Shown here: piece by piece, positions 30,254 to 35,929 of the stretch | Position numbering within the stretch: the first letter of the stretch is position 1 | Layout: each line of letters opens with the position of its first letter | DNA from: Dermabacteraceae bacterium TAE3-ERU27 | GTDB taxonomy: Bacteria > Actinomycetota > Actinomycetes > Actinomycetales > Dermabacteraceae | Reading direction: 5' to 3' | DNA length: 64,000 bases | NCBI GenBank assembly: GCA_019218415.1 | Contig: JAHUUL010000002.1 | Coordinates: 434,001-498,000, forward strand | Made by a program: the position numbers and the translations under genes | The notes under the pieces: model-generated | What the model was told of the DNA's origin: nothing | Database searches by the model: none | Seen by the model: only the letters and a program-made list of their open reading frames with translations

Positions 30254-30336
30254 AGACCTACCTACGCGGCGGGGCGTGGTGATGAAGCAGGCCCGCTAGG
30301 CCGTGGCCTCGGCGTAGAGCCTGAACAGGTGGGCGA
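30157..30336. repeat. Direct repeat, copy B
   Basis: The second copy of the repeat at 29070-29246. Copy B contains the GNAT remnant and the true 3' end of the MmeI-like gene (its frame-corrected stop TAG at 30296-30298). The copies have diverged at many sites, including two short indels, so this is not a fresh tandem duplication. Confidence 0.85.
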
Positions 30337-30480
30337 CTATCTTTTGTTCGTCACCGTCGAAGTCCACCCCGTAGGCGTCCTCCACAGCCTCATCCAGCGC
30401 GCGGTGCGCGGCACTTAAGCGCGGATAGAGGAAATCGTTATCCGGATCGTAGAGGTCGGCAAGACTAGCCTGCGGCCGGG
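30296..30480 (-). pseudogene. Out-of-frame C-terminal segment of the MmeI-like enzyme
   Basis: In the frame one base off from the main open frame, the minus strand reads SLADLYDPDNDFLYPRLSAA, then HRALDEAVEDAYG, and ends HLFRLYAEATA. That is the conserved C-terminal helical domain of MmeI-type enzymes (LYDP, AH-x2-LD-x-AVD). The main frame instead ends in unrelated residues at 30415. A one-base loss near a run of five C/G at about 30478-30484 explains the break. Confidence 0.85.
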
Positions 30481-33186
30481 GGCGCCGACGTCTGCCGCCT
30501 GCTCCGAGGTAGGCTCACCCTCCGGCCACATGTAGTGACTGCGCGCCGCCACCACCTCGCGAGCGCACTCCTCGATCCGGGCGCGCTGCCTATCGCTCGG
30601 CTCGGGCCAGACAAAATTGTTATAGACGATCGTGTTCGAGTAGTTGTAATCAGACTTTAAACGCCCCACGATGGCGCGCATCCAAGCATTATGGAAACGA
30701 GACATGAACACCCCGAACACGTACAGGCTGTCGCTTGGAATGAAATAAAGCTTATTTCCTGGGATCATGCCATTAGTAACGAAACCGGCAGGAATGTAGG
30801 TGCGGCGTTCAGAGCTAACAGAGGGAACCCCGATATAGGTTTTCCCCGGGTCTCTTACCTCATCAAACAGCCAGGGCGTCTCAGCCTTTTTACGCGTAGC
30901 CGCCTTGCTGGAGGACAGCCTGTATTCCCTCACCGCCTTCACACGCTCGCGTATCGGTTCCATGCGAGCTATCTGAGCTGGCGGGCAGTCAACAAGCCAC
31001 AGACAGTAGCGGGGCTTTCCGCTGATGAATTCTTGCCCCATGGAAAAAGGTCGAATCCATTGTGCCCCTTCAGGGCATTGTTTTAAGAATTGCTCTTTTT
31101 CTTCTTCCCAAAACAGAAGGTTCTGTCCCTCAACAGGTTTCCCACCAGCTTTAACTTCTGGCACGTCGCAGAGCGGCTTGCTGCGCCGCTCCACGAAAAC
31201 ATCCGGAGCATCGGCCAGGTAGCCATTAATGTTTCCCGCCACCGTCATCCCGAGAGCACGGCCGCGCGAGTCGTAGCTGTAGATTCTCTTAGGGCCGGGC
31301 GTCTCCCCCTGGCTGAAACCTACGATCACGACGTGCACGTGCGCCTGCCGGTTTGATTCGTTGCCCCACACGAACGATCGGTGCGCGAAATCGATAGAAA
31401 ATCCCCGCGCGAACAGGGGCCGCCAGAGCGGGGCTACCTGCTGGCCCTGGCAGATCGAGTTGGTAGACACGAACGCGCAGCGGGCCTGCCGCCTGCGCGC
31501 CCGGCGCGTCCCGGCGCCGCCGGCTTCGCCGTCAGGCGGCGAGAGGTAGTTCGCTGCCGCCGCGTACCAGCAGGCGACGTAATCCAGGAGTCCCCCCCCC
31601 CCCGCTAGTTTCCGCGAAGAGCGCGGCCCTGTCGGCCTCTGCTCCGCGGTCAGGTTCGAGTAGCCGATGAACGGCGGGTTCCCCATCACGTAGTCACATT
31701 CGGCGGCGGGCAGCACCAGGTTCCAGTCGGTGCGCAGCGCATTGCCGACCACGATCCGGGCGCTGTCGCGCAGCGGCAGGTCTTCCAGGCTGCGCAGCAC
31801 GATCTGCTCGGAGGCGATGTTGGCCTGCAGCTCCGCGATCCAGAGGGCGGTGCGGGCAACTTCTGCGGCAAAATCGTTAATTTCGATGCCGTAGAACTGC
31901 TTGAGGCTCACCTTGATCGGAGAACCGCCAACCTCCTCGAAATCAATGGAAATCTGGTCCCCAAGTTCCGACAGCACGCGATCCTCCAACCGGCGCAGGC
32001 TGAGGAACGTTTCAGTTAGGAAGTTACCTGAGCCGCAGGCAGGGTCGAAAAACTTTAGCGAAGCCAGCTTGTCCTGGAAGGCACGCAGCGCATTTATGCG
32101 CTTGCGCTCCCCCAGGGTTTTGTTTTCTAACAGCTCTTTCAGTTCCCGCGTCAGGCCATCTAGGAACAGGGGGCCGATCACCCGGTGGATGTTCTCGGGA
32201 CTGGTGTAGTGCATGCCGCCCGCGCGCCTGGTCTCAGGGTTGAGGGTCGACTCGAATACGCCGCCGAAAATGGTAGGTGAGATCTGCGACCAGTCCGTGT
32301 TGGCTGCCACGTGCTCCAGCAGCAGGGTGCGCAGCTCCTCGGTGAAGTGGGGAATCTCGGCGCGCTGCGCGAACAGGCCACCGTTGACGTACGGGAAGGA
32401 GGCCAGGGAATCCTCCAGGTACGGATCGCGAGCCTCGACGGGCTGCGCCAGCACGTCAAACAGGTCGAGCAGCGCGCGCCGCATCTGGCTGGCCGGGAAC
32501 TGGCTCAGGTAGCTGACGAACGAGTCGCGGCGGAACAATCCAGCGTCCTCCGCAAACAAGCAAAACACTAACCGCACGCAAAGCATGTTTAGGGCGTGCT
32601 GGTCCTCGGGAGAGTCCGGGTTCAGGTACTGGCGGTGCAGGCCGTCGTAGAGCGCACCGATCAGCTCCCCTGCTTGCATAGAAACAAGGCGCTGGCGTTC
32701 GCTGCGCGAATGCGCCGGGTCGACCAGAAAATCGAGCAGGTGCAGCTGCTCGGGCAGCTCAGCGAGCGTGAATTCCGTGTATTCCTGGGCCGGATTCACC
32801 CGATTCAAGGAGTGGATACGAAAAGTCTCAAAGTTGCAGACAACAATCCAGTCGGGACGCTCCTGATTAGGCAGCGAGTCGGCGTAGCGTTTCGCCTGTT
32901 CAAACGGGGTTACTCGCACGCCCTGGCGCAGCTCCGCGTGGTCTAGATCGACTCCGAAAGACTTCTGCTCCACGATCGTTTTCGCGTCGGGAATGCTTAC
33001 GTCTATCCGCCCGCCCACAAACGTGCGCTGCTCGAACAGGCACTTCGAGCTGGCGTCGGCCATTCCGAACACGTCACGCAGCAGGTCAAGCCAGAACGCG
33101 TGGCTCTCCCCCATCTCGTAGCCGTGTCCGCTCCAGCGGGCCACAAACTCGCGCGCCGCGTTCTTCCGCTCAGCCGTCGTACCCAT
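30415..33186 (-). CDS. MmeI-like (Type IIL) single-chain restriction-modification enzyme, candidate phase-variable
   Basis: One polypeptide that both cuts and methylates DNA. Residues 1-160 carry a nuclease fold with D62, E73 and K75 in GGRIDVSIPDAKTIVEQKSF, a PD-(D/E)xK arrangement. A helical spacer follows, then a gamma-type adenine methyltransferase domain with motif I KFFDPACGSGNFLTE (about 377-391) and motif IV NPPFIGYSN (about 501). The target-recognition region follows (about 620-860). Codons 528-531 are four glycines inside a run of twelve G (31592-31603). The frame ends early at 30415 through a second frameshift, so 923 residues are seen and about 40 proper C-terminal residues lie out of frame. 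No partner subunit lies nearby, as expected for MmeI-like enzymes. Confidence 0.9.
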   Translation of the reverse strand: MGTTAERKNAAREFVARWSGHGYEMGESHAFWLDLLRDVFGMADASSKCLFEQRTFVGGRIDVSIPDAKTIVEQKSFGVDLDHAELRQGVRVTPFEQAKRYADSLPNQERPDWIVVCNFETFRIHSLNRVNPAQEYTEFTLAELPEQLHLLDFLVDPAHSRSERQRLVSMQAGELIGALYDGLHRQYLNPDSPEDQHALNMLCVRLVFCLFAEDAGLFRRDSFVSYLSQFPASQMRRALLDLFDVLAQPVEARDPYLEDSLASFPYVNGGLFAQRAEIPHFTEELRTLLLEHVAANTDWSQISPTIFGGVFESTLNPETRRAGGMHYTSPENIHRVIGPLFLDGLTRELKELLENKTLGERKRINALRAFQDKLASLKFFDPACGSGNFLTETFLSLRRLEDRVLSELGDQISIDFEEVGGSPIKVSLKQFYGIEINDFAAEVARTALWIAELQANIASEQIVLRSLEDLPLRDSARIVVGNALRTDWNLVLPAAECDYVMGNPPFIGYSNLTAEQRPTGPRSSRKLAGGGGLLDYVACWYAAAANYLSPPDGEAGGAGTRRARRRQARCAFVSTNSICQGQQVAPLWRPLFARGFSIDFAHRSFVWGNESNRQAHVHVVIVGFSQGETPGPKRIYSYDSRGRALGMTVAGNINGYLADAPDVFVERRSKPLCDVPEVKAGGKPVEGQNLLFWEEEKEQFLKQCPEGAQWIRPFSMGQEFISGKPRYCLWLVDCPPAQIARMEPIRERVKAVREYRLSSSKAATRKKAETPWLFDEVRDPGKTYIGVPSVSSERRTYIPAGFVTNGMIPGNKLYFIPSDSLYVFGVFMSRFHNAWMRAIVGRLKSDYNYSNTIVYNNFVWPEPSDRQRARIEECAREVVAARSHYMWPEGEPTSEQAADVGAPGRRLVLPTSTIRITISSIRA
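31592..31603. repeat. Twelve-base C/G homopolymer inside the MmeI-like gene
   Basis: Twelve C on the plus strand (twelve G in the coding strand) lie between methyltransferase motif IV and the target-recognition domain. The run is in frame now (Ala then four Gly, then LLDYV). Gain or loss of one base would truncate the enzyme. Confidence 0.97.
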
Positions 33187-33657
33187 ACGCCCCGCCCCTA
33201 AAAGGATCCCAGTGTCTACGGGAAACAGGATATCGGAGCGCCCCTGCGGGCTACGGCCAAGTTACGCGGGTGCACCAAGCCGCCGCTTCGGCGTATAGCC
33301 AATTAAGCGGACGCACTCCCGCTGCCTGACAACAGGTTTGCGGGCATATCGCCGTACCGGACCGGTTCAGCTATACCTTGCACGAGCAGTAGGTTCTTTT
33401 CCAGGATCAGCTCAACCAGTCTTTCGGCATCGGCGCCTCCGTAATAAAGAAAGGCCCCGGCCATTTGTGCATTCCACAAAGGAAGAGGCCTGACCGGGGA
33501 TCTATCGCAAACCACTCTACGACAACGGTTGCATCTGATGCAATGAAGTCTCTGACAGGTATCTCCGGACGGGACACAAAAGCGCACCGATGAGTACGCG
33601 GGAACCTACCCAGGTAGGATCGAGGGCGTTAAAAGAACTTAATCCCCAGGAGCAGCC
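33187..33657 (-). other. Gene-poor spacer with possible decayed coding remnant
   Basis: About 470 bp with no convincing gene. On the minus strand two overlapping frames look protein-like in sequence: one from a GTG near 33578 reading VRDFIASDATVVVEWFAID and ending KDWLS, and another frame, ending near 33303, with AERLVELILEKNLLLVQGIA. Together they may be a single frameshifted gene. I do not recognise it. A hairpin of complementary GGCC-rich stretches lies around 33453-33502. Confidence 0.3.
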
Positions 33658-34177: not shown

Positions 34178-35197
34178 TTAGTCATGCCACTTTCGCGCCG
34201 TCGCTTCGCAGGGCAGCGCCATCTCTATCAGGCAGCCGCTGCCCGCGTTGTGCGCCTGCACGCTGCCGCCGTGCGCCTCGATCACGGTGCGCACTATCGG
34301 CAGCCCCAGCCCGGAGCCGGTTGCCGCGCCCGGCGTGCGTGCAGCATCGCCGCGCCACCCGGCCTCGAACATGCGCTTTAGGTCTTCCTCGCTCAGCCCC
34401 GCGCATTCATCGCTCACCGTTACGCGCAGCCAGCCGTCACGGTGCATCATCTGCACCTCGACAGCGCTACCGGGCGCGGTGTACTGGATGGCGTTCACGA
34501 TCGCGTTTTGCAGCGCCCGGGCCAGCAGGCCCGCGTCCCCCATCACTTCGGCCTGGCCGCCGTCAGTCGCGCCGCGCAGAGTCACCCCGCGTTCGGCGGC
34601 GAGGGGCTGGAGCTGACCGATCAGATCGGAGGTAAGGTCGGCCACGCTCACCGGCTCCAGCCGCATTCCCGACGCGCCGCTGCGCAGGCTGGCCAGGGAC
34701 ATCAGATCGTTCACCATGCCGGTGGTGCGGTCGGCCTGCGCCACGATACGGCGATAATAAAGCGCGGGATCGGACGCGACGCCGTCCTCCAACGCCTCCC
34801 CCATCGCCCGGATGCCGGCCAGCGGCGTGCGCAGATCGTGCGATAGCCAGCTGATAAGTTCTCGCCGCCCCTCCTCTACCTCGCAGCGGCGCCGCTCCGC
34901 CTCCAGCGCACTCGCGGCGCGCGTGATCGCTTCGCGGTTTTTCATGGAGATAAACATGCCGCTCAGCAGCGCCGCGGGGAGCACGGAAAGCAGCAGGAGC
35001 AGCAGCACCCCGGTTTCCTCGAAAAGCATCAGTTCCGCCCCGACCAGCAGCCCGGCGGCGAGCGCCAGCACCACCACGCACGGGCCGAGCAACGAGGCCA
35101 GGCGCAGCGAATAGCGGGCGCTCCAGAGCGTTAGCACGGACCCGGCTACGCCCGTGGCGAGCGCCGCGGCCCCGGCCAGCAGCAGATGCTCAGTCAT
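34178..35197 (-). CDS. Two-component sensor histidine kinase
   Basis: A 339-residue membrane kinase. Residues 1-85 hold three hydrophobic helices ([60 protein letters not shown]) with almost no extracellular loop, so the signal is probably sensed in or at the membrane. HisKA has the phospho-acceptor in [18 protein letters not shown] (H near 118). The HATPase domain has N boxes ([12 protein letters not shown]) and [10 protein letters not shown]. It overlaps the response regulator gene by eight bases. Confidence 0.92.
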
Positions 35198-35929
35198 CGC
35201 AACCGCCTGTGCGCGGTTCCCAGCGGTAGCCGCGTCCCCAGACTGTTACCAGCCGGGCCGGTGCGGAAGGGTCGGTTTCGATCTTGCCGCGTACGCGCCG
35301 CACATGCACCGTGACCGTGGATTGATCGCCGTAGCCGCTCCCCCAGACCGCCGCCATTAGGTCCTCGCGCGAAAACACCTTGTTCGGGTGTTTGACCAGG
35401 TATTCGAGTAGTTCGTATTCGCGGGAGGTGAGGGCGAGTTCTTTCCCGCCGCGCGTGGCACTACCTGCGGTGGTATCTAGCGTGAGATCGCCGTCCGTCA
35501 ATATTTCGCGCGGCTTCTCCTGCGCTGCGGCAGGGGTTTGGGCCGACGCTCTACGCAGCACGGCCCGTACGCGCAGCACGAGTTCGCGGGGGCTGAACGG
35601 CTTTGCCAGGTAATCGTCGGCCCCGAGCTCCAGGCCTGCGATCCTATCGCTTTCTTCGCCGAGGGCGGTCAGCATGATAAAACGCTGCTGTCCACGCCTA
35701 CCGCACGCAGCCTGCTAAAGATTTCCCTGCCGTCGATGCCGGGCAACATCAGGTCCAGCACGATCGCGTCGTAGTTGCCCGTTAAGGCTTCCTGCAACGC
35801 GGCGTTGCCGTCACCGATTTGGGTAACGGCTATTTCCGCTGCGCGGAGGTAGTCGGCGACGACGCCCCTTACGGTTGCGTCGTCGTCGACCACCAGCACG
35901 CGCGGTTTATCACCCGAAGGTGAAGGCAT
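35190..35929 (-). pseudogene. OmpR-type response regulator interrupted by a frameshift
   Basis: The first part (35929-35669) encodes a receiver with VLVVDDDATVRGVVADYL and the phospho-acceptor Asp in DAIVLDLMLPGIDG. It then stops after VGVDSSVLSC. One frame over, from about 35680, the protein resumes as IMLTALGEESDRIAGLE, GADDYLAKPFSPREL (the conserved Lys), and a winged-helix output domain (LTSREYELLEYLVKHPNKV, STVTVHVRRVRGKIE). Adding one T to a run of four T at 35681-35684 restores one frame. It may be a decayed gene, a slippage switch or a sequencing error. Everything else looks functional, and the kinase gene is intact. Confidence 0.85.

Follow-up and report, generated by a model that had tools for sequence, protein, structure and literature searches.

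Single-chain Type IIG restriction-modification (R-M) enzymes that switch through phase variation are already known, and so are G-tract switches in actinobacteria. For instance, Cj0031 of Campylobacter jejuni is ON with nine Gs in its tract and OFF with ten, and its switching alters both methylation and phage plating (PMC4889913). Similarly, JHP1272 and HP1353-HP1354 of Helicobacter pylori are phase-variable Type IIG enzymes with an MmeI-like recognition region (PMC3936762). Among actinobacteria, G tracts have been found in Cutibacterium acnes (PMC4746626), Gardnerella (PMC11287997) and Bifidobacterium breve (PMC9187656), and in B. breve slippage has been measured, cultures containing G11 at 37% and G12 at 60% (PMC9187656). 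Two statements in the initial annotation of the locus described here, that such tracts are uncommon in actinobacteria and that a switch in a single-chain Type IIL enzyme there would be new, therefore do not stand as worded. What our analysis contributes are further members and the recurrence of such tracts among MmeI-family genes, a point that the initial annotation did not make; a search of the open-access literature found no description of MmeI-family enzymes of Actinomycetota switching through poly-G.

The window, by which we mean the whole 64-kb stretch of DNA analysed, contains on its minus strand an open reading frame (30415-33186; 923 amino acids as encoded) that Pfam, a PDB match and PADLOC identify as an MmeI-family (Type IIL) R-M gene. 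It matches MmeI (PDB 5hr4) over nearly its whole length with E=3e-163, and PADLOC labels it a Type IIG enzyme. Four Pfam domains follow one another in a single chain: the MmeI_N nuclease domain with its D...EQK signature (residues 10-186; 32629-33159), the MmeI_hel helical spacer (residues 197-272; 32371-32598), the MmeI_Mtase gamma-class N6-adenine methyltransferase (residues 362-636; 31279-32103), which is split by the tract discussed below, and the MmeI_TRD target recognition domain (TRD; residues 659-862; 30601-31212). This order, together with the 5hr4 match, bears out the original reading of the locus as a single-chain MmeI-family gene. The diagnostic motifs are all encoded, namely FDPACGSGNF (motif I, FDPACGxG), NPPF (motif IV) and the nuclease D...EQK (D...ExK); the catalytic residues of MmeI are D70...E80-K82, and the motif definitions come from the same source (PMC4833311). 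The C-terminal helical domain MmeI_C (30299-30499, minus strand; PF20467, E=3.8e-10) lies in a frame different from that of the ORF and is not joined to the TRD in the window allele, whereas in a sister species it lies in the TRD frame.

The plus strand reads exactly twelve C at 31592-31603, which corresponds to G12 in the coding strand (codons 528-532, with GGGG from residue 529). The tract follows NPPF and precedes the TRD, precisely as first described, and represents a homopolymer of at least eight G/C within a reading frame, one of the marks of phase-variable genes. The next longest homopolymer of any base in the whole window is 6. Under a first-order Markov model, 0.027 G/C runs of at least 12 and about four of at least 8 would be expected in the window; besides the 12-mer, none exceeds 6. 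The lack of runs of 7-11, despite several being expected, suggests that long runs are otherwise avoided in the window, and makes the 12-mer more exceptional than the Markov figure implies. The possibility that four glycines form a fixed loop of the family, offered at the outset as a refutation, does not survive comparison, as GGG occurs in 0 of 28 homologous loops.

We also considered whether coding genes with G-tract switches are spread through the genomes of this genus and found no support for it: the other inspected tracts of at least eight in the genomes G000 and G001 appear intergenic or located at or near contig ends, and some are artefact-like. Both Dermabacteraceae assemblies have G/C runs of 10-20 that lie at contig ends or close to them (L060, L061, L063, L070, L071), some adjoining low-complexity sequence; these are probably sequencing or assembly artefacts. 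On contig C23 of G000, a G12 that appears to be intergenic (L058, 3986-3997) lies between an arginyl-tRNA synthetase-like gene and an ABC transporter-like gene of the same strand, and could affect expression.

The tract was initially described as in frame, which is correct for ORF 30415-33186 but not for the frame of the family, since the 12 codons preceding it are misread when compared with the sister species and MmeI. The ORF passes the tract open only by compensation: a 1-nt deletion at about 31637 puts the 12 codons before the tract out of frame, and G12 sets the reading right again. Codons 517-528 (31603-31638, minus strand), bounded by this deletion and the tract, consequently encode RPTGPRSSRKLA instead of KADRAALFAETS. 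The segment between NPPF and LDYV follows a conserved pattern, Q-x-x-D/E ... aliphatic-aromatic, in 28 of 28 representative homologues, and the adjacent frame of the window DNA before the tract reads ADRAALFAETS. At the ~31637 site the sister species is one base longer and encodes the conserved segment, from which we infer that the window carries the deletion and that G12 restores its frame.

In the family frame, tract lengths of 8, 11 or 14 are open. Given the sequence that the window has upstream of the tract, the computed products are 550 and 551 amino acids long for tracts of 10 and 13, and 583 and 584 for tracts of 11 and 14, the TRD being absent from all of them; the proposal that a one-base change truncates the protein before the TRD is thus upheld, with a product of 550 or 583 residues. 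The view of the window allele as a clean ON state has to be abandoned, given that G12 compensates an upstream deletion and that a second deletion of 1 nt (30477-30478, minus strand), evident against the sister species and also in alignment to an intact homologue, leaves the C-terminus out of frame and replaces the C-terminal domain. As the segment next to its catalytic motif is replaced and MmeI_C is out of frame, the enzyme of the window is, judging from its sequence, probably impaired at present by these two deletions, which come in addition to the tract.

The sister species, Dermabacteraceae bacterium TAE3-ERU5 (G001/L036), has an orthologue at the same locus that is ~95.7% identical outside the TRD. 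The tract occupies the same codon in both, with G12 in the window and G10, which is out of frame, in the sister species; tract length, whose comparison had been proposed as a check, therefore differs between related genomes, here across two sister species. The sister allele additionally carries a +2 nt insertion (FPYVNGG) that is absent from the window (32391-32394, minus strand). Because both alleles have frameshifts outside the tract, a change in the tract alone yields a normal enzyme from neither, and this counts against reading the tract as a switch. Part of the TRD (30821-31159, minus strand) has diverged between the two species and forms a gap between alignment blocks that are ~95% identical on both sides, a pattern that points to a probable exchange of the recognition domain and is expected where specificity is swapped.

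These lesions raise the question of whether a costly R-M enzyme was recently knocked out in both species, with the tract acting as a mutational hot spot or a bystander and not as a reversible switch kept by selection. Uncompensated intragenic frame-breaking indels fall at four sites in the 2.8-kb R-M gene versus one in the rest of ~44 kb of synteny, the neighbouring Abi_2 gene is reduced by 826 bp in the window, and one R-M system of C. acnes is reported to have been inactivated five times independently (PMC4746626), all of which would fit such a loss. Measured in the family frame against the sister species, however, the R-M gene has a Ka/Ks of 0.099 over 817 codons with 0 nonsense codons, the stretches after each frameshift included; in six genes nearby the ratio lies between 0.02 and 0.26. 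These values exclude long decay, and with it an ordinary long-dead pseudogene, and indicate that the frame lesions are recent and that the gene was under selection for function through most of the divergence. A bystander role is made unlikely by the occurrence of runs of 12 and 10 at a single codon with no other coding runs >6 nearby, and MmeI genes elsewhere are broken at their tracts only. On balance, we regard recent gene loss as rather unlikely, although it retains some weight.

The broken Abi_2 gene adjoining the R-M gene also counts against the switch. In the sister species the R-M gene has this abortive-infection-like gene (L036 3785-4885) directly upstream. Only the two ends of it are left in the window, the junction of the 826-bp loss that removed most of it lying at 33408-33409 (minus strand). 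Taken together, the R-M lesions and the loss of Abi_2 give the impression of a small defence island in recent turnover. In the same neighbourhood, a response regulator near 35680 (ORF 35190-35675 plus the frame above), beside a histidine kinase at 34178-35197, is split by +2 nt relative to the sister species; it holds the one uncompensated frame-breaking indel counted outside the R-M gene.

Part of this pattern might be technical: if sequencing or assembly errors accounted for a portion of the indels, the precise length of the tract among them, the true gene could be intact. G tracts are difficult to sequence and assemble (PMC9187656), and several contigs in both assemblies terminate at or near poly-G runs. 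We nevertheless hold such an error to be improbable, in view of the clustering of frame-breaking indels in the R-M gene, some of which are +2 or single-base and do not fall in long runs, and of the position of the tract inside a 583-kb contig, where both flanks agree with an independent assembly. The concentration of these indels in the R-M gene likewise leaves a generally poor assembly unsupported.

RNA polymerase also slips on long G runs. Slippage of the polymerase or of the ribosome on the tract could supply some in-frame product, making it a means of setting dosage and not a heritable switch, and this would be compatible with purifying selection on nominally frameshifted genes. We consider this account very improbable, because the other frameshifts lie outside long runs and would not be mended by slippage, and because DNA slippage is documented in Bifidobacterium at tracts of equal length (PMC9187656).

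Outside the window, G/C tracts of 8-11 occur in at least seven further MmeI-family genes, at differing positions (given here as codon numbers in the open frame of each gene). The frame changes at the tract in G040, from the same family (L084/L153; G8 near codon 136), G065 (L103/L146; C10 at 625), G236 (L104/L150; G11 at 277) and G793, a one-contig genome from another class of the phylum (L173; G11 at 629). Alignment to intact homologues places the change exactly at the tract in these four, with both flanking frames otherwise open, so that a change in tract length would suffice to switch these seemingly whole genes. The tract is in frame in G248 (L112; G9 at 493), G490 (L159; G10 at 657) and a Gastranaerophilales MAG (L028; G10). 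A second MmeI-like fragment with G10, degraded in appearance, is present in G346 (L151). The two MmeI homologues on viral contigs, both located on one contig, are tract-free.

Tract-bearing MmeI-family proteins share 35-68% mutual identity and carry their tracts at different codons, which argues that the tracts arose independently. A tract position common to the genus of G065 was considered and rejected, as its C10 site is not shared and the relative G490 has its G10 elsewhere in the gene. In a survey of 52 genomes at the level of the order, seven tracts of at least 8 were seen in MmeI genes versus 1.3 predicted (P ~4e-4; P 2e-3 when the two sister species are counted once), and five of at least 10 versus 0.38 (P ~5e-5); the predictions derive from genome-wide tract densities and are conservative, since intergenic DNA is included in the background. 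Among the fetched loci, 296 kb of gene sequence contained eight tracts of at least 8 and six of at least 10, against one and none, respectively, in 513 kb of flanking sequence, a comparison in which G490, found through a search prompted by G065, deserves lower weight. In the genome of G065, the C10 of the MmeI gene is the sole G/C tract of at least 10.

Considering this evidence as a whole, we think it reasonably probable that the tract in the window is a hypermutable poly-G switch within a one-chain MmeI-family enzyme that both cuts and methylates. Under the proposed mechanism, replication slippage would add or remove a G; lengths of 8, 11 or 14 in the family frame would join both halves of the gene, and other lengths would stop the protein before the TRD, leaving neither methylation nor cutting. 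The OFF state would be safe because the nuclease and the methylase reside in one chain and vanish together. The repair background favours this reading: NucS is present in the window and sister genomes, MutS is not detectable in either of the two Dermabacteraceae genomes, and mycobacterial NucS leaves indels of 1-2 nt unrepaired (PMC11551767). Slippage may take place in living populations here and would then alter phage resistance. Homopolymer variation in C. acnes tracks clades, which suggests slow change and counts against a switch (PMC4746626).

For the locus itself, sequence comparison makes it likely that it once switched phage defence ON and OFF in this lineage and that the switch is ancestral. 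Recurrent poly-G switching among MmeI-type enzymes is well supported by the genes compared. The broader proposition, to which we assign an even balance of belief and doubt, is that MmeI-type enzymes have repeatedly and independently evolved poly-G on/off switches at many codons, in Actinomycetota and beyond, owing to the joint loss of nuclease and methylase and to slipped homopolymers left unrepaired without MutS, and that they constitute a recurrent contingency defence mistaken for pseudogenes. If true, phase-variable one-chain restriction would reach actinobacteria, beyond pathogens such as Campylobacter and Helicobacter, and cells of one clone would differ in methylome and phage resistance. 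It would also explain the marks of purifying selection on seemingly broken MmeI-type genes, many of which would be called pseudogenes and missed by annotation pipelines.

In domain order and fold family, the window gene corresponds to MmeI (Type IIL, PDB 5hr4) along the whole chain and retains its motifs NPPF, FDPACGSGNF, MHYTS and D...EQK (PMC4833311); it differs in that the MmeI loop, SVFGNLKSASDLDLV, has no G tract and in its own out-of-frame C-terminal domain. Among its closest counterparts as a switch is Cj0031, which, by description, likewise combines restriction and modification in a single chain with a poly-G tract in the reading frame, although Campylobacter belongs to a different organism group and, of the two, switching has been demonstrated for Cj0031 only (PMC4889913). 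In JHP1272 and HP1353-HP1354 a second homopolymer changes specificity, whereas one tract was found in the window gene and its second frameshift lies outside any long run (PMC3936762). C. acnes is an actinobacterium with variable G/C tracts and an R-M system that was independently inactivated several times, but its tract variation follows clades and the published account does not present the R-M lesions as switching by tract length (PMC4746626). The sortase-pilus switch of B. breve offers an actinobacterial parallel in which the length of an intragenic G10/G11 tract decides the fusion of two ORFs, governing pili, unlike the R-M enzyme of the window (PMC9187656).
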